The translations under genes and the position numbers were made by a program. A DNA stretch of 64,000 nucleotides from Paenibacillus sp. FSL M7-0420. GTDB lineage: Bacteria > Bacillota > Bacilli > Paenibacillales > Paenibacillaceae. Under the pieces are notes generated by a model. That model was not told where the DNA came from. It saw only the letters and a program-made list of their open reading frames with translations, and ran no database searches. Shown here in pieces: positions 10,740 through 58,400 of this stretch; the first letter of the stretch is position 1, and each line of letters opens with the position of its first letter. Location: positions 1 to 64,000 of the forward strand of contig NZ_JBBOCJ010000001.1 in assembly GCF_038002345.1 (NCBI RefSeq). The letters run 5' to 3'.

Positions 10740-10757
10740 GAAGGGAGGTGACACCTG

Positions 10758-11930: not shown

Positions 11931-12001
11931 GTATGCAAAGACGTACAATATTTATGTCTGCAGCACTTAATAAGAGTTCTTCATTGTAGAGGCAACAAAT
12001 C

Positions 12002-39270: not shown

Positions 39271-39298
39271 ACCAACCTAATCATAAGGAGGAACAACC

Positions 39299-40174
39299 AT
39301 GAGACAAGTAAAAGTAGCCGCGACGCAAATGAGCTGTTCCGGCGACATAGATGAGAATATCCGCAAGGCGGAGACACTGGTAAGAGAGGCAGCCGCTCAG
39401 GGTGCGCAGATTATTCTGCTGCAGGAGCTCTTCGAGACGCCGTATTTCTGCCAGAAGGAGAAGTCGGATTACTACGCCTATGCTACGGAGCTGGAGCAGA
39501 ACAAGGCGGTGAATCACTTCAAGGCGATTGCCAAGGAGCTTGCGGTGGTGCTGCCGATCAGTTTTTATGAGAAGAAGAATTATGCGCGGTACAACTCGCT
39601 GGCGGTCATTGATGCGGACGGAACCGTGATGGGCAAATACCGCAAGAGCCATATTCCTGACGGTCCGGGCTATGAAGAGAAATTCTACTTCAACCCGGGC
39701 GATACCGGCTTCAAGGTGTGGAATACCCGCTATGCCAAAATCGGAGTCGGCGTATGCTGGGACCAATGGTACCCGGAAGCTGCCCGGGTGATGAGCCTGA
39801 TGGGTGCGGAGATTCTGTTCTACCCTACAGCGATCGGCTCGGAGCCGCAGGATGGGTCGATTGATTCCAAGGATCACTGGCAGACCTGCATGCTGGGGCA
39901 TGCTGCCGCTAACCTGATTCCTGTAGTAGCCTCCAACCGGATTGGCAAGGAGACTGACGAGGATTCCAGCATTGACTTCTACGGCTCGTCGTTCATCGCT
40001 GGTCCGCAGGGCAACAAGATTGTCGAAGCCGGACGGGATGAGCAGACTGTGCTGGTCAGTGAGTTCGACCTGGATGCGCTTGAGGTTGGCCGGATCGAAT
40101 GGGGGATCTTCCGTGACCGCCGTCCGGAGCTGTACCGGATGATCGCTTCCTATGACGGCGATTTGACCTTCTAA
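39299..40174 (+). CDS. aguB: N-carbamoylputrescine amidase
   Basis: The 291-residue nitrilase-superfamily protein has the catalytic triad: Glu in LLQELFETPYF, Lys in YRKSHIPDG and C153 in GVGVCWDQWYPE. It converts N-carbamoylputrescine to putrescine, CO2 and ammonia. An AAGGAGG site precedes the ATG. It forms an operon with aguA and is followed by a strong terminator. Confidence 0.95.
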   Translation: MRQVKVAATQMSCSGDIDENIRKAETLVREAAAQGAQIILLQELFETPYFCQKEKSDYYAYATELEQNKAVNHFKAIAKELAVVLPISFYEKKNYARYNSLAVIDADGTVMGKYRKSHIPDGPGYEEKFYFNPGDTGFKVWNTRYAKIGVGVCWDQWYPEAARVMSLMGAEILFYPTAIGSEPQDGSIDSKDHWQTCMLGHAAANLIPVVASNRIGKETDEDSSIDFYGSSFIAGPQGNKIVEAGRDEQTVLVSEFDLDALEVGRIEWGIFRDRRPELYRMIASYDGDLTF

Positions 40175-41964: not shown

Positions 41965-42696
41965 ATGGAACCGGTTATTTCAGTCAAGCATCTGCACAAA
42001 TCATTCGGTGCCCATCAGGTACTGACGGATATCAGCGTCGACATTCACAGCCGGGAGGTTGTGGTCGTCATCGGGCCTTCGGGCTCGGGCAAATCGACCT
42101 TTCTGCGCTGCCTTAATCTGCTGGAGCAGCCGCAAAAGGGCGATATTATCATTGAAGGCACTTCCTTGATGGCCAAGAGCACAAGGATTAACGATATCCG
42201 TACTGAGGTGGGGATGGTTTTTCAGCAGTTCAATCTGTTTCCGCACCGCACAGTGATCGAGAACATCATGCTGGCCCCGATGAAGGTGCGGAAATGGACG
42301 GAGGATCAAGCGAGGCAGAAGGCTGTAGAGCTGCTGCAAAAGGTGGGCCTCAGTGAGAAGGCGGAGATGTATCCTGCCTCGCTCTCCGGCGGTCAGGCCC
42401 AGCGGGTGGCGATTGCCCGGGCGCTGGCGATGGAGCCGAAGATCATGCTGTTCGACGAGCCGACCTCGGCCCTGGACCCCGAGATGGTGGGCGAGGTGCT
42501 GGCCGTAATGAAGGAGCTGGCCCTTGAGGGGATGACTATGGTTGTGGTGACCCATGAGATGGGCTTCGCCCGTGAAGTGGGGGACCGGGTGCTTTTTATG
42601 GAGCAAGGGGCCATAGTGGAGCAGGGTGCGCCGGAGCAGCTGTTCGGCAGCCCGTCGCATGAGCGTACACGGGAGTTTCTGTCCAAGGTGCTGTAA
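41965..42696 (+). CDS. Amino-acid ABC importer ATPase
   Basis: The 243-residue protein shows Walker [10 protein letters not shown], signature [15 protein letters not shown], Walker [13 protein letters not shown] and [13 protein letters not shown], which is typical of the GlnQ/HisP polar amino-acid group. It starts 5 bases after the permease stop. It powers the importer. Confidence 0.94.
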
Positions 42697-42953
42697 GAAT
42701 CGCCTAAAGTAGAATATTGTTATTTAATCGGTTATATTAGAAGAGTAAGAAATAGGCAATAAGTCCAAGCGTGAATAGCTGCCCAGGGTGGCGGGGAGGA
42801 GGCTCGGAGATATCTTTTTTTAAAGTATAAGGATGACAGCGGTTCTGCATAATGATTGATCCTTATATTTCCGGCAGAAAAGGATAGGGTGCTTAATAAG
42901 ACGGCATAGGCTTTCTGCTGGTCATAATTCCATAATGATAGAAGGAGAATACG
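42697..42953. other. Intergenic region between the importer and terB
   Basis: No gene is visible in 257 bases. A T7 tract at 42815-42821 after AGATATC may be a weak terminator for the importer. The promoter of terB must lie here but I see no consensus element. Confidence 0.35.
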
Positions 42954-43400
42954 ATGAGCACATTCAAGAATTGGCTGAATACCACCAAGAGCGGACTGAC
43001 GGATCAAGTGAAGAAATTTAAAAATAAAGACTTTATGAACGCGGTGGTGGCGGGCTGCGCGCTGGTTGCTGCTGCTGACGGCAAGATTGAGGAAGCTGAG
43101 AAGAACAAGATGGCGGGATATATGAATCTCAGCAATGAACTCAAGGTATTTGACATGAGGGACGTCATTGCCCAGTTCAATTACTATGTCAGCAACTTCG
43201 AATTCTCGCCGGAGATCGGTAAGCAGGAAGCGCTGAAGGCCATCGGGAAGTTCAACGGCAAACCGGAGGTTGGACGGTTAATCGTGGGCGTATGCTCGGC
43301 GATTGGTGCAGCAGACGGTGACTTCGATGAGCATGAGAAAGCGGTTGTGCGGAATATCTGCAATGTACTGGGACTTAGCCCAAGCGAATTCAGCCTGTAA
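42954..43400 (+). CDS. terB: TerB-family tellurite/stress protein
   Basis: The 148-residue helical protein has the TerB pattern: MNAVVAGCALVAAADGKIEEAEKNKM and a second, similar half VGVCSAIGAADGDFDEHEKAVVRNI. The acidic pairs in each half are proposed to bind metal ions. AGAAGGAG precedes the ATG. It is the first gene of the Ter island; a palindrome at its stop and a new promoter after it suggest that it is expressed partly apart from the TerD genes. Confidence 0.9.
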   Translation: MSTFKNWLNTTKSGLTDQVKKFKNKDFMNAVVAGCALVAAADGKIEEAEKNKMAGYMNLSNELKVFDMRDVIAQFNYYVSNFEFSPEIGKQEALKAIGKFNGKPEVGRLIVGVCSAIGAADGDFDEHEKAVVRNICNVLGLSPSEFSL

Positions 43401-43410
43401 TTACAGGCTG
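43391..43410 (+). terminator. Perfect palindrome over the terB stop codon
   Basis: CAGCCTG TAATTA CAGGCTG covers the end of terB; the downstream sequence GATTTCATTT is only weakly T-rich. It is a weak terminator or attenuator. Confidence 0.5.
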
Positions 43411-43429
43411 GATTTCATTTGCTAATTAC

Positions 43430-43456
43430 TGAAACTTTAGGCGATTCATCGCCGTA
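43430..43456 (+). promoter_or_regulatory. ECF-sigma (sigma-W-like) promoter of the TerD array
   Basis: TGAAAC (43430-43435), 17 bases, CGTA (43453-43456). Bacillus sigma-W promoters have TGAAAC and CGTA with 16-17 bases between. The TerD start lies about 50 bases after the expected start of transcription. Confidence 0.65.
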
Positions 43457-43511
43457 TCACTGATGTAACACCCGCAAGCATACTTCTATCTGGAAACGGA
43501 GGTACTTCAAG

Positions 43512-44108
43512 TTGGCTGGAATTAATCTGGTAAAAGGTCAGAAGATCGATTTAACCAAAGGCAATGCCGGACTGTCTAACGTAATCGTAGGACTGGGCTG
43601 GGACCCTGCCGAACCGGCAAGAGGATTCTTTGGGGTTAAAAAACAGGCGAATGTGGACTGCGATGCTTCAGCGCTGCTGCTGAATGAGAACGGCAAGCTG
43701 ACGAACAAGCTGAACCTTGTCTGCTTTCACAACAAACAGAATGCGAATAACTCTGTAGTCCACTCGGGGGATAATCTGACGGGTGAGGGCGACGGGGACG
43801 ACGAACAGATCATGGTGAATCTGAAGCAGATTCCTGCCGATGTCCATAAGGTCCTTGTTGTGGTTAACATCTACGATGCGGTGAACCGCAAGCAGGATTT
43901 CGGAATGATCAAATCTGCGTATATCCGCATTATTAATGCGGCAGGGAATGCAGAATTGGTTAAGTTTAATCTGACAGAGAATTATACAGGCTTCACGGCA
44001 CTGATCTGCGGTGAGCTGTACCGTCATGGCGAAGAGTGGAAATTCGCAGCCATCGGCGAAGCGGCCCACGCCGCGCATATCAATCAGCTGGCAGAACGCT
44101 ATATCTAA
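43512..44108 (+). CDS. TerD-domain protein 1
   Basis: The start is TTG behind GGAGGT. The 198-residue protein has one TerD domain: [31 protein letters not shown] and the loop [14 protein letters not shown], which in TerD binds calcium. It has an insertion (PAEPARGFFGVKKQAN) not present in its two neighbours, which shows it is the most diverged of the three single-domain copies. TerD proteins are cytoplasmic calcium-binding stress proteins thought to work at the membrane with TerC. Confidence 0.92.
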   Translation: MAGINLVKGQKIDLTKGNAGLSNVIVGLGWDPAEPARGFFGVKKQANVDCDASALLLNENGKLTNKLNLVCFHNKQNANNSVVHSGDNLTGEGDGDDEQIMVNLKQIPADVHKVLVVVNIYDAVNRKQDFGMIKSAYIRIINAAGNAELVKFNLTENYTGFTALICGELYRHGEEWKFAAIGEAAHAAHINQLAERYI

Positions 44109-44137
44109 ATCCAATTTGAGAAAAGAGGGCTCTATTC

Positions 44138-44713
44138 ATGGCTATTAACTTATCCAAGGGACAAAAAATTGATTTAACCAAAACGAATCCAGGCTTGTCC
44201 AAAATTACAGTCGGCCTAGGATGGGATACGAATAAATACGACGGCGGTAAGGACTTTGACCTTGACGTTTCCGTGTTCCTGACGAATGCCAGCGGTAAAG
44301 TAGATAAAGAAACCAACTTCATCTTCTTCAACAACAAGCAGAACGAGAACGCTTCTGTCGTACACACCGGCGATAACCGTACCGGGGAAGGCGATGGAGA
44401 CGATGAGCAGGTTCAAGTCGATTTGCTTAATGTTCCTGCAGATGTGGACAAGATTGCCTTCACTATTACCATCTATGAAGCAGAATCCAGAAGCCAGAAC
44501 TTTGGACAAGTCTCCCGTTCTTATGTACGTATCGTCAACGATGCGAACAGTGAGGAACTGATCCGTTTTGACCTGGGTGAAGATTTCTCCGTTGAAACAG
44601 GCGTAGTTGTAGGCGAATTGTACCGTAACGGCGCAGAATGGAAATTCAATGCGATTGGCAGCGGCTACAAGGATGGTCTCTCCGGCTTGACCCGTGATTA
44701 CGGTCTGCAATAA
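44138..44713 (+). CDS. terD: TerD-domain protein 2
   Basis: The 191-residue protein is the most typical TerD copy: [38 protein letters not shown] and loop [14 protein letters not shown], all calcium-site residues kept. It corresponds to the YceD/YceE group of Bacillus. An AAGAGGG site lies 8 bases before the ATG. It shows close similarity to the next copy, suggesting duplication within the island. Confidence 0.93.
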
Positions 44714-44763
44714 GGCTCTGACATTACGGGAATTAAATCTGTAAGGAAAGAGGGTTTTTGACA

Positions 44764-45345
44764 GTGACGATCAGTCTTTCCAAAGGACAGCGGATTGATC
44801 TTACCAAGACTAATCCGGGTCTGACCAAGGTAGTTGTAGGACTGGGCTGGGATACAAACAAGTATAGCGGCGGCAAGGATTTCGACCTTGATGCATCAGC
44901 ATTCCTGCTGCATGAGGACGGCAAAGCCAAAAGCGAAAATGACTTTGTATTCTATAACAACCCAAGCGGCGGTACTGGATCTGTAACCCACACAGGCGAC
45001 AATCGTACAGGGGAAGGCGACGGGGATGATGAGCAGATCGTCGTAGACTTCAGCCTGGTGCCTGCCAATATTCAGCGGATCGGGATCACGGTTACGATCT
45101 ATGATTATGAGGCCCGGGCACAGAACTTCGGACAAGTCTCCAACGCTTTCGTCCGCGTAGTGGATGCATCCAGTGACCGTGAGATTCTGCGGTTCGATCT
45201 GGGCGAGGATTTCTCCACCGAGACGGCTGTGGTCTTCTGTGAATTCTACCGCCAGGGGGCGGACTGGAAATTCCAGGCGATCGGCAGCGGCTTCGCCGGC
45301 GGACTAAGCGCGTTATGCAAAAACTACGGGCTGGACGCGCAATAA
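44764..45345 (+). CDS. TerD-domain protein 3
   Basis: GTG 44764 is chosen because the protein then begins M-T-I-S-L-S-K-G as in relatives and AAGAGGG has the same spacing as in the previous gene; TTG 44758 is the alternative. The 193-residue product keeps [20 protein letters not shown] and loop [14 protein letters not shown]. It is the third consecutive TerD copy and is followed by a terminator-like hairpin. Confidence 0.92.
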
Positions 45346-45352
45346 GAGCTTC

Positions 45353-45385
45353 AAAGGCGGGATCATCATCGATCCTGCCCTTTTT
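45353..45385 (+). terminator. Terminator-like hairpin inside the Ter island
   Basis: AAAGGCGGGATC (45353-45364) pairs with GATCCTGCCCTTTT, followed by TTTTTAT. The next gene starts 55 bases later on the same strand, so read-through or a new promoter is required. Confidence 0.7.
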
Positions 45386-45439
45386 ATACACAAAATCTGA
45401 TAAGTTGCGCTCTTATCCATGTATAAAGGTGGCGTAAGA

Positions 45440-46765
45440 ATGAATACAGAAGTAGTCAAAGGACAGAAAGCAGACCTGACCAAAGGGAACCCGGGGCTCC
45501 GCAGCATTACGGTTGAGATCGGGTGGAAAGCTCCGTCTTCCATGGATATTGATGCTTCCGCATTCCTGCTTGGAGCTGGCGGTAAAGTCGGCAGTGACGA
45601 CGATCTGATCTTTTACAATAACCCGTCTACTCCATATATCACTTATAAGGATGTGCCGGGTACGGCTTCGGGCGGACTGAAGCAGTTCGAGGTCTCGCTG
45701 GAGCGGATTCCGGCAAACATAGTGAAGATTGCCTTCACGCTTACTCTGTATGACGGAGAAAACCGCAAGCAGATGTTCGGACAAATGAGTGAAGCGGAGT
45801 GCCGGATCGTGAATCAGGCGACAGGTGCGCAGCTTCTGCGGTGTAACCTTGGAAATCAGTTCTCTGTGGAAACGGCTGTTGTAGTTGGAGAATTATATAG
45901 ACATGGTGAAGAATGGAAATACAGTGCGATTGTTGCGGGCTTCTCGGGCGGGCTTAAGGCGCTCTGCGGCAACTATGGCATAGAAGTAGAGGACGAGCCT
46001 GCGCCGGCACCGAAGCCGCCTGAACAGACGCCTCCGCCGGGACGCCCGCCGCTTCAAGTGCCGCCGCCCCGCGCAGAGTCATCCAGACCGAATATTGTGA
46101 TTCCGCCACCGCCTGCACCGGCACCCCCTAAGCAGGAGGCTGCTCCCGCACCGGCGCTGAATCTCAATCTGAAGAAGATTGAGCTGAAGAAGAAGGGCGA
46201 TTCGATTAACCTGAAGAAATCCGCCTCCGGTCTGGGTGAGCTGCTCATTAACCTGAACTGGAACCAGAAGCAGGGCGGAGGGCTGTTCAGCCGTAACAAG
46301 GGCGGGGTAGATCTCGACTTGGCCTGTCTGTATGAGCTGAAGAATGGCAGCAAAGGCGTGGTGCAGGCACTGGGCAATGCGTTCGGCAACCTCCAGCAGC
46401 CGCCGTACATCATGCTCGATGGAGATGATCGGACAGGCTCCGTAACATCTGGCGAGAATCTGCGTATAAACGGAAGTAAGGTCGCCCAGATTGAACGGAT
46501 TCTGGTGTTTGCCTTTATTTACAAAGGAGTTACCAACTGGTCTGAAGCGGATGGAGTGGTTACCCTGAAGCAGGATGGAGGACCGGATATTATCGTTAAT
46601 CTGGACGAGCATAACAACCGTAAAGGCATGTGCGCCATCGCGCTGATCCGGAATGTGGATAACGAGACCTTCAGTATTGAACGGCTCGTGCAATATTTCA
46701 GCGGTCACAGGGAGATGGATGAGGCTTATGGCTGGGGGCTTCGCTGGGTAGCGGGAAGCAAATAA
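45440..46765 (+). CDS. Double TerD-domain protein with proline-rich linker
   Basis: ATG 45440 follows AAGGTGG. The 441-residue protein has a TerD domain (residues about 1-185), a linker of about 60 residues rich in Pro and Ala, and a second, diverged TerD/TerA-like domain (about 245-441). The first domain keeps SMDIDASAFLL but lacks the [13 protein letters not shown] calcium loop. The second has GGVDLDLACLY and LDGDDRTGS. The pattern suggests a structural or bridging role between calcium-bound TerD units, which is inference. Confidence 0.9.
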   Translation: MNTEVVKGQKADLTKGNPGLRSITVEIGWKAPSSMDIDASAFLLGAGGKVGSDDDLIFYNNPSTPYITYKDVPGTASGGLKQFEVSLERIPANIVKIAFTLTLYDGENRKQMFGQMSEAECRIVNQATGAQLLRCNLGNQFSVETAVVVGELYRHGEEWKYSAIVAGFSGGLKALCGNYGIEVEDEPAPAPKPPEQTPPPGRPPLQVPPPRAESSRPNIVIPPPPAPAPPKQEAAPAPALNLNLKKIELKKKGDSINLKKSASGLGELLINLNWNQKQGGGLFSRNKGGVDLDLACLYELKNGSKGVVQALGNAFGNLQQPPYIMLDGDDRTGSVTSGENLRINGSKVAQIERILVFAFIYKGVTNWSEADGVVTLKQDGGPDIIVNLDEHNNRKGMCAIALIRNVDNETFSIERLVQYFSGHREMDEAYGWGLRWVAGSK

Positions 46766-46792
46766 TTTGATATTACCGGAGGCGCAAGTGGA

Positions 46793-47536
46793 ATGGACTG
46801 GTTCAGTGATTTTTTTAGGAGTATCGGTGAGAATTACGGGCATTTCTTCTCATGGAGTGATATTGCAGGAACGCTCTCCGACCCTGTCAGCTGGGGGATA
46901 ATCGGAAGCTTGATTCTGCTGGAGGGTCTGCTGTCCGCTGATAACGCGCTTGTACTGGCGGTCATGGTTAAGCACCTGCCGAAGGAGCAGCAGCGTAAGG
47001 CGTTGTTCTACGGTATTATCGGTGCTTATGTATTCAGATTCCTGGCGATTGGGCTGGGGACCTATCTCGTCAAATTCACGCTGGTGAAGGTGCTTGGAGC
47101 CTTGTATCTCTTCTACATTGCCTACAAAGGGTTGTTCAAGGGCAGCGGAGAAGAGGGAGAGATTAAGAATAAAGGCGCCTCCTTCTGGAAGACGGTACTC
47201 CTCGTTGAATTAATGGATATTGCCTTCAGTATTGACAGCGTGGTAGCTGCGTTTGGTCTTAGCAGTGAAGTATGGGTACTCTTCCTGGGCGGTATTCTCG
47301 GCGTACTGATGATGCGCGGAGTGGCACAGGTGTTCCTCAAGCTGATTGCCAGATATCCTGAACTGGAACAGACAGCATTCCTGCTTATTGCACTGATTGC
47401 CGGTAAAATGCTTGCCGGAGCCTTCGGCTATGAATTGCCGCATGTAATTTTCTTCGGTATTCTAATTGCGGTGTTTGCAGGTACTATCGTGTATAGCGCA
47501 AGCAAACGCAAGAAGGCTGAGAACCACAAGGCCTGA
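46793..47536 (+). CDS. TerC-family membrane protein
   Basis: The 247-residue membrane protein has seven or more hydrophobic helices and the TerC motifs LEGLLSADNALVLAVM and LVELMDIAFSIDSVVAAFG, whose acidic residues in the membrane are thought to bind a metal ion. Relatives (YceF, YkoY, MeeF/MeeY) export manganese and supply it to secreted enzymes. It is the membrane part of the island. GGAGGCG precedes the ATG. The last gene before the structured intergenic region. Confidence 0.92.
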   Translation: MDWFSDFFRSIGENYGHFFSWSDIAGTLSDPVSWGIIGSLILLEGLLSADNALVLAVMVKHLPKEQQRKALFYGIIGAYVFRFLAIGLGTYLVKFTLVKVLGALYLFYIAYKGLFKGSGEEGEIKNKGASFWKTVLLVELMDIAFSIDSVVAAFGLSSEVWVLFLGGILGVLMMRGVAQVFLKLIARYPELEQTAFLLIALIAGKMLAGAFGYELPHVIFFGILIAVFAGTIVYSASKRKKAENHKA

Positions 47537-47580
47537 TGGTTCTGCGTGCTTCATCTATTTATCCTTTATAGCTGTGCAGG

Positions 47581-47751
47581 AAGGCGCGGGGTTCACGGGA
47601 AGGGTGGACTCCGGCACGCCTTTCGGGTAATCGTAATAGGTTTATAGCATGGCCTTTGCTTGGGTTCTAAGCAAGCCGGATACCGTCCCCGAGAGGACGG
47701 CATAGCTGGTTCTGCTCGCAGCCAGAGGCCATTTGTATTGTGCTGGCACAA
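47581..47751 (+). ncRNA. Candidate structured leader RNA before the Ter biosynthetic genes
   Basis: Between terC and the lyase gene lie several possible helices. AAGGCG (47581) pairs with CGCCTT (47617). ATGGCCT (47649-47655) pairs with AGGCCAT (47726-47732) and encloses three hairpins: TTGCTT/AAGCAA (47656-47674), CCGTCC/GGACGG (47683-47700) and CTGG...CCAG (47706-47725). TTGTG/CACAA (47738-47751) follows. This closed multi-branch shape suggests a cis-acting RNA. I recognise no known class, and no covariation can be tested here. Confidence 0.45.
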
Positions 47752-47769
47752 CATTAAGGGGGAAGGGCC

Positions 47770-48978
47770 TTGAGATATTTCGATTACCTCACACAAGAAC
47801 AGGAAGCCTCATTATTCCATGTTCCGCCGGTTTCATTTGATCATACTACCCGCAAGGATTTACTGGCTTATGCCGTCGGAGCAGCCCTTTATATGCCGGC
47901 CACCCGTGCCAGTGTTGCCGAAGATATTATTAAGCTGAGAGCCTCAGGACTTATTACGGTAATCATAGATCTGGAGGATGCCATCGGAGACGGTGAAGTG
48001 GATTATGCCGAAGAATCCATCGTCAGGCATCTGGCGTTCCTGTCCGCTTATGCGGAGAATGAGCCGGAGCAGCGCGGCAGTCTTCCGCTGCTGTTCATCC
48101 GGGTGCGTAACCCTGCACAGCTGCGGGATCTGATCTTTCGGCTGGGATCATTAATCACCATGCTGACCGGCTTCGTCTTCCCCAAATTCTCCGTAGAGAA
48201 CGGTACGGATTATTTCGAGGCCATTGCCGATTACAATGACACACGCAGCTATTCCGCCCCGGTGCTGTACGGGATGCCGATTCTGGAGAATGCACCGATC
48301 ATCTACCGGGAGAGCCGGATGGATACTCTGCTTGGGGTGCGCGATCTGCTGGGGCAATACCGCGAGTATGTACTGAATGTCCGGATTGGAGCGACGGACT
48401 TCTCCAGTCTGTTCGGACTGCGGCGCAGCCCGGATATCAGTATTTATGACCTGACGCCGATCCGTGACTGCATGTCGGATATCATTAACGTCTTTGGCCG
48501 TGTGGAGGAAGGATACGTGATCTCGGGTCCTGTGTGGGAGTATTTTGCCAGCAAAGGACACCGGGTCCTCCGCCCGCAGCTGCGGGAGACACCCTTCGAG
48601 GATACCTACGGCAAGCATGGCCGCGAGATGCGCAACAGCTTCATTTCAAGCTCGATGGACGGGCTGATCCGGGAAGTAATTCTGGACAAGGAGAATGGCA
48701 TTGTGGGCAAAACCATTATCCACCCCTCCCACCTCAGACCCGTGCAGGCGATGTATACCGTAATGCATGAAGAGTATGTGGATGCCTTAAGTATTGTAGA
48801 CAGCAACGATGGCAGCCGCGGCGTGTTCAAGAGTGAATACTATAACAAAATGAATGAAATCAAGCCTCATTTGAACTGGGCCAGACGAATTTTATTACGA
48901 TCTCAAATATACGGGGTGTTACATGAACAACAGCATTTTGTCGGATTACTACCCGAGAACGAATACACACACGTTTAA
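47770..48978 (+). CDS. HpcH/HpaI-like C-C bond lyase of the Ter biosynthetic set
   Basis: The start is TTG behind GGGGGAAGG. The 402-residue protein is a TIM barrel of the citrate lyase/HpcH family, with MPATRASVAEDI, the metal-binding VIIDLEDAIGDGE and LLFIRVRNPAQL. In Ter islands this subgroup is described as a C-C bond lyase that starts synthesis of a proposed nucleoside-like product. The actual reaction is unknown. Its 3' end overlaps the next gene by 56 bases, an unusually long overlap. Confidence 0.85.
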   Translation: MRYFDYLTQEQEASLFHVPPVSFDHTTRKDLLAYAVGAALYMPATRASVAEDIIKLRASGLITVIIDLEDAIGDGEVDYAEESIVRHLAFLSAYAENEPEQRGSLPLLFIRVRNPAQLRDLIFRLGSLITMLTGFVFPKFSVENGTDYFEAIADYNDTRSYSAPVLYGMPILENAPIIYRESRMDTLLGVRDLLGQYREYVLNVRIGATDFSSLFGLRRSPDISIYDLTPIRDCMSDIINVFGRVEEGYVISGPVWEYFASKGHRVLRPQLRETPFEDTYGKHGREMRNSFISSSMDGLIREVILDKENGIVGKTIIHPSHLRPVQAMYTVMHEEYVDALSIVDSNDGSRGVFKSEYYNKMNEIKPHLNWARRILLRSQIYGVLHEQQHFVGLLPENEYTHV

Positions 48979-50347
48979 TATCGTCGAGAATCTGCAGGTT
49001 ACGGTAACAGAAACCTCCAATCCTTTTCATATGCCTGTGGAGTCCTTGTTCTCTATGGCTGCACGAATCAATAAGAAGCGCTCCTTCCTGTTCGTCAGCA
49101 AAGTGCTTGGCAAGCACATTCCCGTAGGGCCCTATACCCCGCTGCTTAGCGGAGCGGCACTCGCCTTGCTCCTGTATCTGGAGATGAGCGCGGATACCGC
49201 TGACCGGGAGATGATGGAACCGCTGATGAACCAGGCCGTTCATGGCCTGATCCATCCTGAAGTTGCGGAAGAAGCTTATCATGCGCTGCTTGCTGCGCGC
49301 CTGGCTCTGCCTGAGCCGGTTCTGTTTATCGGGTTCGCCGAAACCGCTACCGCCCTTGGCCACAGCATGTATAATGCATTCGCCGGCGGTGCGTCCTATA
49401 TTCATACCACGCGTGAGCTGATTCCTGAGCTGGAATCGGTGGTGACCTTTGAAGAGGAGCATTCCCACGCCGTAGATCATCTCTGCTATGCCCTGAATGC
49501 CGGGCTGTTATCGGGGACAGAGCCGATTGTATTAGTGGATGACGAGATTACGACCGGTAATACGGCGATTAATACGATCCGGGACATCCAGTCCAAATTC
49601 CCGCGCAGGGAGTATGTAGTGGCTTCTCTCTTGGACTGGCGGAGTGAAGCTAATATCCAGGCGTACCGTGAGCTGGAGCTGGAGCTGGGGATACGCATAC
49701 AAGCTCTATCACTGCTGCAGGGAAGCATCAAGGTTGAGGGGGTTCCGCTGCTGCAGCCTGCAGCCGGTAACGGAGCCGCCGCTACCACAGGCGCAGAGCT
49801 TGTAACTACTTATGCATTCGACGGCTTAGAGCGGCTTCCGGTAACCTCGGCGGATGGACTGGGCGTTATCAATCCATCGCCTTATCTGAAGCACAGCGGC
49901 CGCTTCGGCCTGGAGTCTGCGGATAATGCGCGGATAGATGCAGGTGTAAGCCGTGTGGCCAGGCAGCTCCGGGGGCTGCGGGAAGGCGGACGTACCCTGG
50001 TGATGGGCGTAGGCGAGTTCATGTATCTGCCGATGCGGATCGCCGCAGAGATGGGAGAGGGCGTGCTGTACCAGTCCTCAACCCGCAGTCCGATCCATCC
50101 CGAGCGGCGTGCGGATTACGGCGTGCACAGCGCCGCAGCCTATCCGTCCGCAGGCGACACGGAGATCAAGAATTTCATCTATAATGTGGACCCCGGCCAG
50201 TATGACGATATCTTCGTCCTGCTGGAACGCGAGGTGCCCCGGCAGCGGATTGCACCGATGACGGATATTTTACAGAGGCTGGCGGGCAATAAGGTACATC
50301 TTGTTGTGCTCAGCCCAGAACCAGATACGGGAGGCTCAGGGCTATGA
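48923..50347 (+). CDS. PRPP-binding phosphoribosyltransferase with TRSP-type domain
   Basis: The 474-residue protein has a type I phosphoribosyltransferase domain in residues about 30-275, with the PRPP loop IVLVDDEITTGNTAIN, and a C-terminal TRSP-type domain (GEFMYLPMRIAAEMGEGVLYQSSTRSPIHP; key part YQSSTRSPIHP). It should attach phosphoribose to a base-like ring. It overlaps the lyase gene by 56 bases and the next gene by ATGA. Such genes are part of the Ter-linked biosynthetic module. Confidence 0.88.
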   Translation: MNNSILSDYYPRTNTHTFNIVENLQVTVTETSNPFHMPVESLFSMAARINKKRSFLFVSKVLGKHIPVGPYTPLLSGAALALLLYLEMSADTADREMMEPLMNQAVHGLIHPEVAEEAYHALLAARLALPEPVLFIGFAETATALGHSMYNAFAGGASYIHTTRELIPELESVVTFEEEHSHAVDHLCYALNAGLLSGTEPIVLVDDEITTGNTAINTIRDIQSKFPRREYVVASLLDWRSEANIQAYRELELELGIRIQALSLLQGSIKVEGVPLLQPAAGNGAAATTGAELVTTYAFDGLERLPVTSADGLGVINPSPYLKHSGRFGLESADNARIDAGVSRVARQLRGLREGGRTLVMGVGEFMYLPMRIAAEMGEGVLYQSSTRSPIHPERRADYGVHSAAAYPSAGDTEIKNFIYNVDPGQYDDIFVLLEREVPRQRIAPMTDILQRLAGNKVHLVVLSPEPDTGGSGL

Positions 50348-51498
50348 AGGGAATAGATATCGAAGCCATTCACAATAGAACAATATCCCCTCCGGTGGCA
50401 CTGGGCAGCTATCCTGCTTCCGACGTTACCTTCCTGCTCAAGGATCTAAGCAATGTATCCCTGGAGCGGGGAACGGCCGAGCGGGAGGAAGCGATCCAGT
50501 CCGGCGTGCATTATTCGGAGATGCTTCCGGTGGAGTACCAGCCGACAGAGCAGTATATCGAATTGTTTCATGAGACGCTGCAGCAGACTGCGAAGAAGGT
50601 GGCGCTGGCTGTAGCTGTGGTGTCCGAGATGATTGTAGCCCGGCGGGGAACGGCGAATACCGTGCTGGTCTCCCTGGCGAGAGCGGGCACACCTATTGGG
50701 GTATTGATCAAACGTTATATTCTTGAGAAATATGGAGCGGATCTTCCGCATTACAGCATCTCGATTATCCGCGGCAAGGGGATTGATGAGAATGCGGTGC
50801 TCTATATGCTGCAGCAGCATGGAAGGGATGCCGAGCTGCAATTCATCGATGGCTGGACCGGTAAGGGGGCCATCCGGCAGGTGCTGATAGAGGCCTGTGA
50901 GAGTATGCATAAGAAATATGGCATTACGCTAAATGATGATCTGGCGGTACTCGCAGATCCCGGGCACTGCTCGGGAACCTACGGCACCCGGGAGGATTAT
51001 CTGATTCCAAGCGCCTGCCTGAACTCCACGGTATCCGGCCTGATGAGCCGTACGGTGCTCCGTGATGATCTGATCGGGCCAGAGGAATTCCACGGGGCCA
51101 AATTCTACAAGGAATGGCTGGACAGTGATCTGTCCAACGTATTCGTTGAAGCGATTACCCCGTATTTCGCGGAAGTAGCAGCAGAGGCATTTGCGCAGGC
51201 TGCGGAGATGCTGGAGCATCCGCCGGAGATTACCTGGCAGGGGCTGGCCGATATCCGTAGTATCCAGGATACCTTCGGCATAGATAATATCAATCTGGTG
51301 AAGCCCGGAGTGGGGGAGACGACACGTGTACTGCTGCGAAGAGTGCCCTGGAGAATCCTTGTCGACAGGCTGGACAATCCCAACCTGCGGCATATTCTGC
51401 TGCTGGCGGAGGACCGGGGCGTGCCGGTAGAGGTCTATCCCGGGCTGACCTACTCCTGCTGCGGCATCATCAAGCCGCTGAAAGGGGAGAGTGAATGA
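50344..51498 (+). CDS. StiP-family protein with PELOTA-like C-terminus
   Basis: The 384-residue protein has the pattern of the StiP group (often named cysteine protease StiP): SDVTFLLKDLSN, PTEQYIELFHETL, LVSLARAGTPIGVLIKRY and ADPGHCSGTYGTREDY. The last 80 residues (TRVLLRRVPWRILVDRLDN, AEDRGVPVEVYPGLTYSC) look like a PELOTA RNA-binding fold. The part around LARAGTPIG resembles a phosphoribosyltransferase-like core. Whether it is a protease or a transferase is open. It overlaps both neighbours by ATGA. Confidence 0.82.
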   Translation: MKGIDIEAIHNRTISPPVALGSYPASDVTFLLKDLSNVSLERGTAEREEAIQSGVHYSEMLPVEYQPTEQYIELFHETLQQTAKKVALAVAVVSEMIVARRGTANTVLVSLARAGTPIGVLIKRYILEKYGADLPHYSISIIRGKGIDENAVLYMLQQHGRDAELQFIDGWTGKGAIRQVLIEACESMHKKYGITLNDDLAVLADPGHCSGTYGTREDYLIPSACLNSTVSGLMSRTVLRDDLIGPEEFHGAKFYKEWLDSDLSNVFVEAITPYFAEVAAEAFAQAAEMLEHPPEITWQGLADIRSIQDTFGIDNINLVKPGVGETTRVLLRRVPWRILVDRLDNPNLRHILLLAEDRGVPVEVYPGLTYSCCGIIKPLKGESE

Positions 51499-52331
51499 TC
51501 TACGCCAGCGATCTGGACCGCACGCTGATCTACTCTCTTAGCGCGATAGGCGTTCCTGAGGATACCCCGGGTCTGGTTCCGGCAGAGGTTGTTGACGGCA
51601 GAACGGTATCGTATATCTCACAGCAGGCTCTGGCTACACTGATAGAGCTGGCGGCGAAGATTGTCTTCATGCCGGTGACTACACGTACGATTGCCCAGTA
51701 CCGGCGGATTAACCTGTTCCAGGAGACGGTCATTCCGGATTATGCCATCACCAGCAATGGCGGCAATATTCTTGTGAACGGGATAGTGGACCAGGATTGG
51801 CGGACGGCTGTCGGCAGAGCGGTGGAACGCGGCTCCGCTGCGGCGGAAGAAGCCGAAAGCATCGTGCGTGCTGTTGTTCAGGAAGAATGGATCATTAGCC
51901 GGCGGTATTGTGATGAGCTGTTCTATACCTTCGTGGTTCACCGGGATTCGCTGCCGCTGGAGGAGATTGCCCGGATGTCTCAACGGCTGGGCGAGCTTGG
52001 CTGGAGAGTATCCCTGCAGGGGCGCAAGCTCTATATCGTGCCGGAGGCGGTGAACAAAAGCGATGCCATTCTTCATGTCCGCCGCACCGTGCATTCGGAG
52101 CCGATGGTCGCCTCAGGCGATTCCCTTCTGGACAAGAGCCTGCTCGCCGCCGCCGACTATGCCATAGCTCCCTGCCACGGAGAAATATTTGCCGAGCAGC
52201 AGGCGGGTTTAGTACACTTAGAGTATCCGTTTACAGAGCGGCCGGGGGTATTTGCCGCGGATGAGATTATGCAGTATGTTCACAGGATTTATACACATTC
52301 GACAGCATTGGGAGTTGGACCGCCACCATGA
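51495..52331 (+). CDS. HAD-family phosphatase of the Ter biosynthetic set
   Basis: The 278-residue protein starts with motif I YASDLDRTLIYS. VFMPVTTRTIAQYRRINLF contains motif II and VASGDSLLDKSLLAAADYAI motif IV. It is a C2-cap-like HAD of the sucrose-phosphatase/Cof class. It could remove the phosphate from the phosphoribosylated product made by the two preceding enzymes. Joined to both neighbours by ATGA overlaps. Confidence 0.87.
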   Translation: MIYASDLDRTLIYSLSAIGVPEDTPGLVPAEVVDGRTVSYISQQALATLIELAAKIVFMPVTTRTIAQYRRINLFQETVIPDYAITSNGGNILVNGIVDQDWRTAVGRAVERGSAAAEEAESIVRAVVQEEWIISRRYCDELFYTFVVHRDSLPLEEIARMSQRLGELGWRVSLQGRKLYIVPEAVNKSDAILHVRRTVHSEPMVASGDSLLDKSLLAAADYAIAPCHGEIFAEQQAGLVHLEYPFTERPGVFAADEIMQYVHRIYTHSTALGVGPPP

Positions 52332-53383
52332 AAAAGGTAAATATATATTTCAACCGCTGGTTCTCTGTTGCCTATCATTATATGAATCTCATCCGAAGCA
52401 ATGAAGACGGGATTCCGGTGCAAATCTTCGCCACCCACCCGGATATCCACCATATGTCGCTGCAAGGCGCCGATGTGGCCGCAACCGAGCCTGCACTCGA
52501 AGGCATTGAATACGTGCAGTTCTGTGTTGATTTTTGCCGCCGGAACGAGATTGATATCTTCATCCCCCGGCTGCATATGCTCGATATCGCACTGCATGCA
52601 TCGCTGTTCGATGAGATCGGGACGAAGGTGCTGGTCTGCCGTGATCTGGATCTGCTGGAGATGATCATGGACAAAGGCAAGTTCTATGAGAGCGTGAAGA
52701 CCACCGGGATTATGACAATTCCTGATTATCATGTGGTTAGTAATGCAGAGGAGTTCAGGGAAGCTTATGAAGATCTCGCAGCCAAAGGGCATAAGGTCTG
52801 CTTCAAGCCTACCGAGACGGAAGGCGGGCTCGGATTCCGGATCATAGACAATGACCGCAGTCCCGTGGAGGAGCTGTTCGGCCATGTGACCCCGCTGATC
52901 TCCTTCGGGGAGGCTTACCGCATCCTTGCTGAAGCCGGGAGCTTCCCTAACCTGATGGTGATGGAGCTGCTGGAGGGATATGAATATAGTATTGATTGCC
53001 TGTCGGATGAGAAGGGCAGGCTGCTGGCCGCAGTCCCCCGCCGGAAAGCAGGCGGCCGCCTGCGGTTGATGGAATATATCCCGGAGCTTGCGGAGGTGGC
53101 CCGCAGGGTGGCTGAGACGTACCGGATTCCGTTCAATTTCAATATCCAGATGAAATACAGCGGCGGCGTGCCCAAGCTGCTGGAGATCAATCCGCGGATG
53201 TCCGGCGGCCTGCATATCTCCTGTCTGTCTGGAATTAACTTCCCTTATCTGGCTGTCAAAAGCGCGCTCGGAGGCGAGGTTCTGCCTGCGTCGTTCGAGC
53301 ATAATGTCCTGGCCAGCCATGTCGAGCAGCCGCTGATCATGAAAATAAACGGAGAATCCGTCATTACGGATTCCGTGAATTGA
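52328..53383 (+). CDS. ATP-grasp ligase of the Ter biosynthetic set
   Basis: The 351-residue protein has the ATP-grasp layout: lid segment GHKVCFKPTETEGGLGFRII, the acidic MELLEGYEYSIDCL, and the metal-binding end KLLEINPRMSGGLHISC. It would join an amino acid or other carboxylate to the nucleoside-like intermediate. Enzymes of this type are a defining part of Ter-linked modules. Its start overlaps the HAD gene by ATGA; the next gene follows after 36 bases. Confidence 0.88.
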   Translation: MKKVNIYFNRWFSVAYHYMNLIRSNEDGIPVQIFATHPDIHHMSLQGADVAATEPALEGIEYVQFCVDFCRRNEIDIFIPRLHMLDIALHASLFDEIGTKVLVCRDLDLLEMIMDKGKFYESVKTTGIMTIPDYHVVSNAEEFREAYEDLAAKGHKVCFKPTETEGGLGFRIIDNDRSPVEELFGHVTPLISFGEAYRILAEAGSFPNLMVMELLEGYEYSIDCLSDEKGRLLAAVPRRKAGGRLRLMEYIPELAEVARRVAETYRIPFNFNIQMKYSGGVPKLLEINPRMSGGLHISCLSGINFPYLAVKSALGGEVLPASFEHNVLASHVEQPLIMKINGESVITDSVN

Positions 53384-53419
53384 GCGTGTAGCATTCACGC
53401 TCATAAGAGGTGAGAAGGA

Positions 53420-54139
53420 ATGCAAGCTAAATTCAAAGTACTGGCGTATGCCGGTGCCGGTTATGTCGTAGCCGTACTGACCAGCGGCTTCCTGCCTGAG
53501 CTGGTCTCGCTGCTGCTTCCGGTAATCGGAGCCGCACTTGCGGTGCCGGAGCTCAGGCGCACCAGAGTGAATCTTCCGGTAGAGGTGATTCCTGCCGGAC
53601 AGGAGCCCAAGGTGATTCCGGCGGCATCGTCCGCCGCGCCGCAGGCTTCGTCTGCTGCCGCTGCTGCGACTCCTGCTGCTGCGGGACAGGCCTCCCCGGC
53701 CCATTCGGGTGCCGGACACAGGGAGGACATACAGATCGGAGCAGAGTTCGCTCCGGTGGTGGAGTATCTGGGCATCCTGGAGGATATGATCATCTCCGAA
53801 GGGCAGAAGGATACGCTGGACAATGAAATTGTCGAGAAGTCGCTGGCGCTGTTCGCCAGGCTGCAGCGTGTCATTCCGCTGCTGCAGGAGCTGGGCAACG
53901 GCGAGATTAACCATACCGTCCGCAGGCTGGTGCTGAAGGACCTTAATGGAGTCATCAATCCGTTCCTGCGCCTGGGGGGCGAAGCCAAGACAAGAAACCG
54001 GAGAATGCTGCTGAACGGTCTGCGTGATGTCGATGCCAAAATTTCCGATATTGCGTCGACAATCGAGCACAAAGACCTGATGGAACTTCAGACCAAGGCG
54101 GAACTGATTCATCAGCGCTACAGCAGTTCCGAATTATAG
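53420..54139 (+). CDS. XpaC-like membrane-anchored protein
   Basis: The 239-residue protein starts with two hydrophobic segments (residues about 8-45), followed by an Ala/Pro-rich linker of about 50 residues and a helical domain (EYLGILEDMIISEGQKDTL, RLQRVIPLLQELGNGEI). Position directly before telA matches the Bacillus XpaC-YaaN order. XpaC is known only as a protein linked to hydrolysis of a phosphate dye. It may anchor TelA at the membrane. Confidence 0.75.
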   Translation: MQAKFKVLAYAGAGYVVAVLTSGFLPELVSLLLPVIGAALAVPELRRTRVNLPVEVIPAGQEPKVIPAASSAAPQASSAAAAATPAAAGQASPAHSGAGHREDIQIGAEFAPVVEYLGILEDMIISEGQKDTLDNEIVEKSLALFARLQRVIPLLQELGNGEINHTVRRLVLKDLNGVINPFLRLGGEAKTRNRRMLLNGLRDVDAKISDIASTIEHKDLMELQTKAELIHQRYSSSEL

Positions 54140-54152
54140 GAGGAGGATAGCC

Positions 54153-55247
54153 ATGTCCACGCAGTTAATTGAGCTTAGAAAAGAAGATGAGCAGAAGGTA
54201 GTCCAGGAGGCTTCCCAGTTAATTGAGCAGGTAGCCAAGACTGACACGGTGGCACTGGATTCCCTGATGGATGATATCGGGAAGCTTGGGGTCAAGACGC
54301 AGGAGAAGGCAGGCCAGACGCTGAAGCTGCTGGACCGCCCCGTCAATGACCTGATGAGCGGCAAGCGGGTGGAAGTGCCCAATATGATTATGAAGCTGCG
54401 GGGTGAGTGTGAGACACTCCAGCAGAGCAAGAATGTCAGCTTCTTCGGCAAAATGCTGCGCAAAAGCCCGCTTAAGAATTATGTCTACAAATATCAGTCG
54501 GTCCGCACCAACATTGATGCCATTATCACCGGTCTGCGTGACGGCCGGGATACGCTGGAGGAGAGCATCGTCAACATGCGCCAGCTGAAGCGCACCTCTA
54601 TGGAGGAGATCTATAACCTCCAGACCAAGATCGCCTTCGGCAACAAGCTGAAGGAGCTGTTCGAGGTGGAGATCGCCAAGCCCGAGAATGAGTTCCGCAA
54701 AGCGTATCTGGAGCGCGGGCTGCGCAAGGTCATGGTGCGGATTCAGTCCATGACCGAGATGATTCTGCTCTACAATCAGGCGATAGCGGCAACGGATATC
54801 ATCAATGACAATAATGACAAGCTGATTGATTCCGTAAACAACGCGATCGATAAGACCTCTAATCTGATCACCGTCTCGGCGATGATTGCCATGTCCCTGG
54901 CCGATCAGGAGAATGTCATCAATGCGGTCGAAGCCACCAACAAGACCATTGAGGATCAGTTCAAGGAGAATGCACGGCTGCTGCGCACGACGACCGAGAA
55001 GACAACGGAGCTGCTCTCCAAGCCGTCCATGTCGCTGGAAGCCGTGAATCAGGCTATTGGCGACCTGCTCAGCGCCCTGGATACCTCAGAGCAGTCCAAC
55101 CGTCGGATCATCGAGAGCTGTCAGGATTATACGTCCAAAATGACCACCATCAACACCCAGCTGAACAACCGGCTCGGGCTGAATGAGGGTTCACAGCCGC
55201 AGGCGTTGAAGCAGGCGGAGAACGGGCTGAGCAGCTTTTTGAATTAA
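54153..55247 (+). CDS. telA: TelA-family toxic anion resistance protein
   Basis: The 364-residue helical protein has the TelA pattern: GVKTQEKAGQTLKLLDRPVNDLMSG, NFFGKMLRKSP-like segment and QTKIAFGNKLKELFEVEIAKPE, then long coiled coil to the C-terminus. TelA/KlaA/YaaN proteins give resistance to tellurite and other membrane stresses by an unknown mechanism. AGGAGGAGG precedes the ATG. It is the last gene of the island and is followed by a strong terminator. Confidence 0.93.
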   Translation: MSTQLIELRKEDEQKVVQEASQLIEQVAKTDTVALDSLMDDIGKLGVKTQEKAGQTLKLLDRPVNDLMSGKRVEVPNMIMKLRGECETLQQSKNVSFFGKMLRKSPLKNYVYKYQSVRTNIDAIITGLRDGRDTLEESIVNMRQLKRTSMEEIYNLQTKIAFGNKLKELFEVEIAKPENEFRKAYLERGLRKVMVRIQSMTEMILLYNQAIAATDIINDNNDKLIDSVNNAIDKTSNLITVSAMIAMSLADQENVINAVEATNKTIEDQFKENARLLRTTTEKTTELLSKPSMSLEAVNQAIGDLLSALDTSEQSNRRIIESCQDYTSKMTTINTQLNNRLGLNEGSQPQALKQAENGLSSFLN

Positions 55248-55289
55248 GGGTTTGATTCTGGGCCTGTAGAATAACTTGAATAATGCACC

Positions 55290-55323
55290 AAGCCTGCTGA
55301 TATGGATTCGGCGGGCTTTTTTT
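55290..55323 (+). terminator. Rho-independent terminator closing the Ter island
   Basis: AAGCCTGC (55290-55297) pairs with GCGGGCTT (55311-55318) and a seven-T tract follows. Confidence 0.85.
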
Positions 55324-55406
55324 GTTGTTAAATTTCTAATTTACTAATATATTCCGGTGAGCTATTATGAGAAGGTTCTAGTCGTACATACAAGGAGAGA
55401 ATATTG

Positions 55407-58400
55407 ATGGTCAGAAAATTAACAGGAATACTGGCAGGTATAGTTGGAGCGGGGATGCTGTTTGGTTCTTTGGGGACAGCGGCAGCCCAGTCTGCATTGA
55501 CAAAGGATTATGAGGGACATTGGGCTCAGCAAACGATTCAGAGCTGGCTGGATAGCGGTTTGCTTAAAGGCTTCGGGGATGGATCGGTTAAACCGAACCA
55601 GACCATAACCAGAGCGGAGTTTATGACGCTCATCAACCGTTCTTATCATTTTACGGAACAGAGTAAGGTGAATTTCTCCGATGTGCCGCCTACCAGCTGG
55701 GCGTATAGTGAGGTTGCAAAGGCTGTAGCGGCTGGATATATCCAGGGCTTCAACAATGAGATGCGCCCGAATGCTCCGATTAACCGTCAGGAAGCGGCAG
55801 TTATAATCAGCAAGCTGCTGAAGCTGGACGCGGGTAGTATAGAGGTATTGGGGGTATTCAGTGATGCAAGCCAGATTGCATCCTGGAGTAAAGGAAGTGT
55901 GGCTGCCGCAGTCACAGCGAAGGTGCTTAAAGGATATCCGGATGGAACCTTCGGGCCCGTCAAACCCTTGACCCGTGCAGAATCCTTGGCGCTGATCGAT
56001 GCGGCAGTCGCTCAGACGGGTCAATCTGCACAGGGAGCGGCGGCGCCTGCTCCAGCCGTAATACCGTCAGCTACTCCAGTAGCTACAGCTGCACCAACTG
56101 CGACTGCTGCTGCAGCTGCGGGAGGAAGTGGCGGCGGTAGCGGTAGTGGTGGTGAATCTCCGGCGACGCCACCTCCGGCTCCGACTGAAACTCCTGGTGT
56201 CACAGCCACACCGGCAGCGACAGCAACTCCATTAGCTATTCCGTTTGTAGACGGGGTGAAGATTGCTGTTAACGAGGATATCCGTACGGCTAATTCCGTC
56301 AATCTGACGATCGATTTCAGACGGGTTCCGGACGAATTGGTATCTAAGATAGACCATTTTGAACAGTATATTTCAAACGGTGCTGTTCCGGTTGAACAGT
56401 TATTGTCGGGAGAATTCTATCCTGAATATTTTGACTCACTTTATGAAAATTTCAACTTTCCTATTTATGCCTTTCAATTAGAGGGGATTACCGATCCCTA
56501 TATTACGCAGGTCTTTTATGATACCGATAATCAGCCGGTAGGGTACTTCAGACAAAAGACTGAAATGAAGCTTATGACGGTTACAAAATCAGACCAATTC
56601 TCAGAGTTGCATGATGGAGTGACAGTATCCAGAGGCTCTGTTGGAGCAGATGTCTATGATATCCGGATAGATGTTTCGGAGGCACTGGAGCAAGCCGGAA
56701 AACAAGTCGTCTATTACTCGATTAATCCTCAAGAAACACTTATGGAACCGAGTGATGCACATGTGATCGACGAGATCCTGACAGGCCAGAATTATTTATA
56801 TCGTCAGGACAGCGGGACTGTGTATTTTGAATACAGTTCAGATAAGACTTATTATGTAGTGTTCTATGACAGCAATCTTCAGGCTCTAAGCTATTACGCA
56901 GGAGATTGGAAGAGATCGGAGCAGAAGGCTTTGGAGCTTGCACTCACCCGTATTCAAGCCTTGCCGGATGCTGCGGTCATAACTCTAGCTGATGAGGATG
57001 CAGTAACTGCCGCTTTAAGTAAATTTGATATTCTGTCAGAAGATCAGAAGATGAAGGTAAGCATGGAGCTGCAGGACAAGCTGAACGATTCGGTTGAGGC
57101 AATCGGAAATCTGCGTCCGCTCGGCAGTTTGGGGTATCCTTATTTTAATGCGGTTACTACAGGTGAAGGTGATTATCTGAATAGTATCCCGATTGTTATA
57201 GATTTGCAGAACCTGCCGAGCCTACTCCGCTACACATCCGTTAATTTTACTCTTTCAGTTACAAGCAACCCTATCGGACTGGGGTTTCTAATTAATCAGG
57301 GTGAGAATTACAAATTCGATTTAGCCAGCAGACCGGTGGATATTGGAGGACCAACGGCGGATAGTTATCTAAACATCGTTCTCTATGATAAGCAAGGGAG
57401 AATAACTGCATACTATAGCGAGCCAGTGAGCTTTCCGGCAGTTAGAGCTGTGTGGAGCAATCCTATTCCTCAAATTACAGAGGGTGTAGTGATCCGGAAG
57501 AGCGACACCGGTGGCGATGCTGAAATTGACATTAGCGGATATGTGAATCAAGTCCCGCAATCGGCTGCTTATTACACTTTGAATTTACAGTCCCAGGAGC
57601 GCGGAGGATTAACGGAGTTTGGTCCCGAAACGAGGTTATTAAATAAGGAAATGGCATACTTGCGCAGCACCAGACAGTCGACTATAAATGTATCTAACGA
57701 GAGGGATGATGAGCAATATTTAATTATCTTTTATGACAGGAGCTACAATGTGCTCGGCTATTATCAGGGCCAAGCTGCATATACAGAGCAGCAACTCCTG
57801 ACTCTGGCGAGTTCAAGGCTGTCTGAACTGCCGGAAGTAGATGCAATTACTCTTGAAGATGAATATCGCGTGGAGAAAGCAAGGTGGGCTTTTGAAGCTT
57901 TAACGGAGAGCCAGCGGCACCAGCTGAATGCTGCTTACCTTGCAAAACTGGAGCAGGCTGAATCCAGAATAACTGAACTTCATTCCGGCGGGCCGATATC
58001 TGTGCTCCCGCAGGTCGGAGGAGTAGTCAGAGACTTTGAATTCCCTAATATGGTGAACGGAACATATCTGGGTGTCACATTTTCCTTCTTGCCTCTGGCG
58101 GTGAAGGAAAAGGCAGTGTCCTTTAAAGCCTATCTAACAGATCAACCCATTACAGAGAATGATCTGAGCAACCGGTGGCCGGACAACAGTTACCCTTTTG
58201 GAGCGGGCGGCTATACTCTTACTAGCCCTGAACTTCCGGTGGAGAAGTACGTTACGCTGGTATTTTACGATAAGAATAATACAGCAGTTGCTTACAATAC
58301 GCAAAAAGTTCAATTTACAAAGAATACGCCGCTTCTTGACGCCCCGGTTATTGAATTAACAGAAGGCGTGGAAATTAGCAGCAGAAATGTTGGGGAAGAG

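Follow-up and report, generated by a model that had tools for sequence, protein, structure and literature searches.

The DNA analysed here (hereafter the window) is a stretch of 64,000 nucleotides from Paenibacillus sp. FSL M7-0420, whose genome spans 7.67 Mb in two contigs. Between positions 42954 and 55247 it carries a Ter locus in which all genes lie on the forward (+) strand. The list of open reading frames (ORFs), together with Pfam and NCBIfam matches, identifies TerB, four TerD-type proteins, TerC, five enzymes, a protein of unknown family and TelA. This is the gene set given in a preliminary description of the DNA, except for one gene discussed below. The present work deals mainly with the five enzymes, and with the ribosylated compound that they may make.

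The locus opens with a TerB-type protein of 148 amino acids (42954–43400; Pfam TerB, 8e-23), and a pattern scan places a putative extracytoplasmic function (ECF) sigma-type promoter box, TGAAAC-N17-CGTA, in the gap after it (43430–43456). Four TerD-type proteins follow: the first (43512–44108, with a TTG start as listed; Pfam TerD, 3.9e-70), the second (44138–44713; TerD model at 44138–44701, 4.2e-81), the third (44758–45345; TerD model at 44767–45327, 8.9e-82), and a fourth, two-domain protein of 448 amino acids (45419–46765) with TerD stretches at 45440–45976 and 46190–46534. A TerC membrane protein of the YkoY family (46793–47536; NCBIfam TIGR03716, 1.1e-72) precedes the enzymes, which are a HpcH/CitE-type C-C bond lyase (47770–48978; Pfam C-C_Bond_Lyase PF15617, 1e-117), a phosphoribosyltransferase (PRTase) with PRTase_2 and TRSP domains (48923–50347; PF15609, 2.3e-70 and PF12500, 2.5e-40), a “StiP” protein with a PELOTA_1 domain, argued below to combine a variant PRTase fold with an L7Ae-like domain (50344–51498; PF11202, 2e-105 and PF15608, 4.6e-35), an S6PP/HAD-IIB-like HAD phosphatase (51495–52331; PF05116, 8.2e-09) and an ATP-grasp ligase of the Ter type, ATPgrasp_Ter (52328–53383; PF15632, 2.5e-45). 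The unknown-family protein (53420–54139) directly precedes the TelA-type protein (54153–55247; PF05816, 3.1e-35). The three ATGA overlaps previously claimed among the enzyme genes are all legible in the sequence letters, at 50344, 51495 and 52328, and the last 56 nucleotides of the lyase ORF also belong to that of PRTase_2. No known RNA or riboswitch was matched at E 1 or better in an Rfam scan of 42600–55500.

In order to identify conserved features, StiP was searched for in one genome per species, which gave at least 594 StiP-encoding stretches. The best 80, those closest to the window, were kept, and 71 of these extend 4.5 kb or more beyond StiP in each direction, the other nine being dropped for this comparison. 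The lyase, PRTase_2, StiP, HAD and TerD are each present in 71/71 loci; TerC is found in 58 of the 71, ATP-grasp in 21, TelA in 20, a homologue of the 53420–54139 gene in 14 and TerB in 10. The full order TerB-TerD(x4)-TerC-lyase-PRTase_2-StiP-HAD-ATP-grasp-unknown-TelA was found in eight Paenibacillaceae loci (L028–L032, L034, L039 and L077), and further loci depart from it by a few genes. Since the full order recurs in eight loci and the five families in all 71, the gene cluster is not a product of chance. I take the locus to be a well preserved chromosomal Ter operon of the Paenibacillaceae; among the named genomes listed, its closest StiP relatives (84% identity) are in P. helianthi and Paenibacillus sp. 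S150. StiP relatives are also found on plasmids, in 2566 of the 72,556 records searched and chiefly in enterobacterial ones. On viral contigs, a scan with the StiP alignment gave three loci, and a scan with the single StiP sequence gave no relative. One phage record, MT836648.1 (L026), is an unannotated 15 kb contig labelled bacteriophage that encodes PRTase_2 and StiP, together with three TerD proteins and a lyase in reversed orientation.

The PRTase_2 protein has the hallmarks of a type I phosphoribosyltransferase, namely the PRTase fold and a phosphoribosyl pyrophosphate (PRPP) loop with an acidic pair and a TG motif. An inactive loop would have counted against the pathway sketched in the preliminary description, but the loop is intact: D206, D207, E208, T211 and G212 are invariant in 34 sequences. 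When the PRTase_2 alignment was searched as a profile against the PDB, a weak mixture of matches was obtained, headed by UMP synthase (E 0.11) and including a good number of PRTases.

StiP had been listed among the enzymes as a “StiP-type protein”, and appears to be a second PRTase-fold protein. Its predicted model (predicted local distance difference test, pLDDT, 93.9; predicted template modelling score, pTM, 0.93) finds PyrR, CriT and HPRT as its best structural matches, and of the 16 Foldseek matches in the PDB at E <= 0.001, 13 belong to PyrR or to 1ufr, a relative of it from Thermus. In a structure comparison with the same model, the 50 rows listed comprise PRTase-like entries and one of L7Ae type, and the CriT/gPRT rows 8a0c_B and 7shg_B are tied in Z with PyrR against the StiP half. 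The PRPP loop reads D169-G170-W-T-G-K-G, and D169-G170 is invariant both in 19 diverse sequences and in a set of 59. Around a K-G-A-N-E-A-T-K stretch the PELOTA domain aligns with Snu13, a weak match (E 0.018–0.023) in which the Asn of the Snu13 stretch is Gly in StiP; E325 and R328 are invariant in the 19 sequences. A PDB profile search with the StiP alignment gave only weak matches, none better than E 0.18 and mostly to ribosomal proteins of the L7Ae/eL8/eS12 type over the PELOTA domain; there was no sequence match to the CriT/gPRT transferases. StiP thus looks, from its predicted structure, like a PyrR/HPRT-like phosphoribosyltransferase fold joined to an L7Ae-like domain, and not like a protease. 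The row of locus L080, which contains X from masked bases, was included in alignments A3 and A4 and left out of A5.

The two PRTase-fold proteins are tightly paired. In a survey of the phylum, based on an even draw of 299 genomes and the Pfam cut-offs for both families, StiP and PRTase_2 exceed their cut-offs in exactly the same 15 genomes; a further 62 of the 77 genomes with PRTase_2 matches fall below the Pfam cut-off and were left out. Moreover, PRTase_2 and StiP are encoded in one ORF in 22 of the 80 genome loci, from Paenibacillus, Alkaliphilus, Marinisporobacter, Pelosinus, Lysinibacillus and Streptomyces, and the fused protein of L047 is modelled with a pLDDT of 91.1 and a pTM of 0.83. 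Such a fusion is a stronger sign of coupling than the ATGA overlaps. The smallest sets seen consist of PRTase_2, StiP and HAD near TerD, and were found in two places. In phage vB_AbaM_ME3, of which 25 kb were read, PRTase_2, HAD and StiP lie near TerC and TerD, as passages of an earlier paper report (PMC7824862). In genome G189 (L115, G189:C18:1-14000), a divergent minimal set of PRTase_2, StiP, HAD and three TerD occupies 1336–12095 and adjoins TelA, YceG and a P-type cation ATPase; among the 10 of 17 listed ORFs that were scanned there, StiP has no PELOTA match and PRTase_2 no TRSP match.

The remaining enzymes are well conserved at candidate catalytic positions. Residues E69, D70, R111, R113, K139, E173, D210, K314 and H318 of the lyase are kept in at least 97% of 82 rows, as are D6, D8, T10, K188, G208, D209 and D213 of the HAD phosphatase (86 rows) and K116, K160, E219, E286 and N288 of the ATP-grasp protein (27 rows). 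For the lyase, 45 of the 299 genomes pass the Pfam cut-off, and a threshold of 300 bits was used (next best 66 bits); 15 genomes exceed it, 14 of which are common to the StiP/PRTase_2 set. The lyase of the window has a median identity of 47% to other Ter lyases. An ortholog-level lyase, 44% identical to that of the window, is present in genome G095 (L116, G095:C1:1302000-1318000, at 7687–8829), where its neighbours are fumarase subunits, a thiamine pyrophosphate enzyme, a DegT aminotransferase, a nucleotidyltransferase and a UDP-N-acetylglucosamine 2-epimerase, a neighbourhood that would fit a hydroxy-acid or keto-acid substrate.

The ATP-grasp protein was searched for in 44 module-bearing genomes, these being 43 chosen loci plus the window's own genome and not a random draw. 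ATPgrasp_Ter exceeds 100 bits somewhere in the genome in 16 of the 44, a cut placed post hoc where the scores drop from 119.8 to 83.3 bits. In the other 28 it does not rise above 83 bits, and for 21 of these the best match lies in an ORF as long as carbamoyl-phosphate synthase (1051–1106 amino acids). Distant ligases could account for some of the weaker matches (83.3, 70.6, 68.7 and 58.7 bits, in ORFs of 303–430 amino acids). Since ATP-grasp is near the module in just 21/71 loci and strong in 16/44 genomes, the core product can probably be made without ligation. The route suggested initially, running from lyase product through phosphoribosylation and dephosphorylation to ligation, is partly supported: candidate residues are conserved in all four enzymes, but the closing ligation is optional.

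The promoter box at 43430–43456 is the sole match to its pattern in the window, where 0.18 are expected and 17 of 100 shuffles contain at least one. Upstream sequences (300 nucleotides before the first terD) were then compared in 72 of the 80 loci, the eight that lack the lyase plus an upstream TerD being dropped. TGAAAC-N15-17-CGT occurs in 30 of the 72, with A as the next base in every case, against 0.54 expected from the density in the loci; the loci are related, so these 30 boxes are not 30 independent events. The B. subtilis yceC-yceH Ter operon is described, in the passages concerned, as being under sigma-W, -B and -M (PMC3498285). An ECF-type box in this position suggests that the module is under envelope-stress control, and points to envelope stress as the relevant condition.

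Taken together, I judge it somewhat more probable than the contrary that the locus is a Ter stress operon under ECF-sigma control whose enzymes, namely paired PRTases, a HAD phosphatase, a lyase and an optional ATP-grasp ligase, build a ribosylated small molecule. PRTase_2, with its canonical PRPP loop, and StiP, with its variant one, would act as a single physical unit using PRPP, and the HAD phosphatase would strip the 5'-phosphate from the transferred ribose. The HpcH/CitE-type lyase may make or trim an organic-acid part of the acceptor, and in this lineage the ATP-grasp enzyme may extend the product by ligating another carboxylate or amine. The product, which would be a ribosylated compound of nucleoside or other kind, could then act on the TerD/TerB proteins, as their ligand or as a signal, at a membrane complex of TerC and TelA. 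The literature contains proposals to this effect: in two papers TerD, or TerB and TerD, are suggested to bind a nucleotide-type signal (PMC7159879, PMC7824862).

Several observations weigh against this proposal. In StiP, Gly replaces the second acidic residue of the DD pair, leaving no adjacent acidic pair, and the loop is shortened, so that StiP could be a non-catalytic partner; the Foldseek TM-scores against PyrR are also modest, at about 0.25 by query and 0.5 by target. In two of the 22 fusions (L095 and L106) the ORF contains just part of PRTase_2, and TRSP has no match in the PRTases of phage ME3 and G189. Core and lyase do not always go together, because no lyase was seen in the ME3 stretch and none matched in G189, while G095 has a lyase without PRTases over the cut-offs. 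The strict promoter box is present in just 7 of 17 Paenibacillaceae-like loci. The 71/71 counts are skewed towards relatives and do not describe all carriers, as the 80 loci are those closest to the window. What the data show is the gene content, the conserved residues, the PRTase fold of the StiP model, the pairing and fusions, the dispensability of ATP-grasp and the recurrent box; I infer the enzyme activities, the order of the steps, the identity of the product, the use of the promoter and the reading of the product by TerD.

Other explanations centre on what StiP does. It could be a regulator of the PyrR kind, PyrR being an RNA-binding regulator: StiP would sense a nucleotide, its L7Ae-like domain would bind RNA, and it would control PRTase_2 or the operon. 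The predominance of PyrR and 1ufr among the Foldseek matches, the degenerate DD pair, and the PELOTA-Snu13 alignment with its invariant E325 and R328 all speak for this, but the weakness of that alignment with its Asn-to-Gly change, and the failure of the Rfam scan to find a known leader RNA, do not, and the fusions and strict pairing suit an enzyme subunit at least as well. This explanation, which overlaps with the proposed pathway, is unlikely but deserves serious attention. A similar weight can be given to StiP being a glycan-type O-phosphoribosyltransferase like CriT of Bcs3, which would place ribose-5-phosphate onto a hydroxyl for the HAD enzyme to dephosphorylate, giving an O-ribosylated product and not a nucleoside. 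It is a finer form of the ribosylated-molecule pathway, so the two overlap in probability, and the product would perhaps be doubly ribosylated. A more specific version, in which a CriT-kind StiP is joined to a nucleobase-type PRTase and the product is a doubly ribosylated compound or, since StiP has an L7Ae-like domain, ribosylated RNA, seems to me rather unlikely. PRTase_2, StiP and HAD would then make the product, with lyase and ATP-grasp adding lineage-specific decorations; if true, chromosomes, conjugative plasmids and a jumbo phage would share a novel class of stress metabolite or RNA mark.

The enzymes might also make a siderophore-like or other metal-binding ligand, with TerD proteins storing or using the metal complex. 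Ligand pathways often include ATP-grasp and aldolase-type enzymes. Moreover, of the four carriers whose genes were read one by one, two (an Alkaliphilus plasmid and G189) have a P-type cation ATPase gene alongside, but no such gene is present in the phage ME3 or Citrobacter stretches, and besides TerC no gene for a transporter or siderophore could be recognised in 42954–55247. I consider this option distinctly improbable. Least credible, to the point of being nearly negligible, is the cysteine protease activity implied by the Pfam and NCBI names. The PF11202 family carries that name, and “cysteine protease” is given to the StiP gene in 39 of the 40 plasmid rows listed, but among the 19 diverse StiP sequences no Cys column is complete (the best, C225, is kept in 16), the Citrobacter plasmid protein named a protease itself lacks C225, and the modelled fold is that of a PRTase. 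A full-text literature search gave no primary source for the activity; one paper simply uses the name, the passages concerned of PMC13239750 just list stiP among metal-resistance genes, and the main text of PMC10318531 contains neither “StiP” nor “PF11202”.

For the gene at 53420–54139, described initially as XpaC, that name is not supported. Its protein matches no Pfam family at E 10 and no NCBIfam family at E 0.01, and a whole-genome search with the XpaC model PF10112 returned nothing at this position at E up to 10. Its relative in L042 likewise has no Pfam match at E 10, and that in L047 has only sub-threshold Pfam matches, to other families. In all 14 loci with a homologue, TelA comes directly after it. 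Elsewhere in the genome, a second TelA (G000:C1:3118140-3119078) is a better match to the family than that at 54153–55247 (256.8 against 123.9 bits). Beyond the window, TerD domains were found at five more places (G000:C1 2133398, 1285160, 1286606, 4378313 and 7186720), two of which are about 1 kb apart on opposite strands. Directly downstream of TelA lies a large S-layer-homology (SLH) protein with three SLH stretches (55404–58655). Upstream of the locus, at 38239–40174, a PAD_porph gene of the peptidyl-arginine/agmatine-deiminase type adjoins a carbon-nitrogen hydrolase gene, possibly a putrescine pathway pair.

A module of this kind was reportedly proposed by Anantharaman, Iyer and Aravind in 2012, who are said to have predicted a Ter-linked biosynthetic module making a nucleoside-like compound. 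The present locus has the features of that module: PRTase_2-TRSP, StiP-PELOTA_1, and lyase, HAD and ATP-grasp partners of the same families, beside TerD, TerC and TelA. What differs is the setting, here a chromosomal Paenibacillaceae one with the order TerB, four TerD, TerC, enzymes, unknown gene and TelA. The same five enzymes occur in the IncHI ter region of the Citrobacter freundii plasmid pPSV, but in the order ATP-grasp, PRTase, HAD, StiP and lyase, divergent from the terZABCDE-type genes and with a StiP 37% identical to that of the window; pPSV also carries genes for TerW, a von Willebrand factor A protein, TerY-C and a phosphatase and kinase. The yceC-yceH genes of B. subtilis are likewise a Ter-type stress operon, but the B. 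subtilis control genome has no StiP match and so lacks the biosynthetic module.

Among PRTase-fold proteins, PyrR gives the top Foldseek matches to StiP, but StiP departs from it: its PRPP loop is shorter, it carries a distinct L7Ae-like domain, and it has PRTase_2 as a fusion or operon partner. The ribofuranosyltransferases CriT/CrpP of Bcs3 and gPRT/PRP couple a PRPP-using PRTase-fold transferase to a HAD phosphatase, according to the descriptions consulted in part. CriT and gPRT are among the structural matches of the StiP half, tied with PyrR, and gave no match in sequence; in CriT the acidic pair is split (D680 and E818). A HAD partner also accompanies StiP in 71/71 loci, but as a separate HAD-IIB/S6PP-type gene, and the CriT/gPRT systems serve glycan polymerisation; the same partial descriptions mention no PRTase_2, lyase or L7Ae-like domain. 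In passages of papers from 2021, the compound of the Ter module is described merely as predicted. The module itself is of an already known kind, and what is added here is a sharper, testable model of its pathway: the PRTase fold and the pairing of StiP narrow the possible product, and the smallest set of PRTase_2, StiP and HAD, with an optional ATP-grasp enzyme, turns an “unknown metabolite” into a small reconstitution problem.

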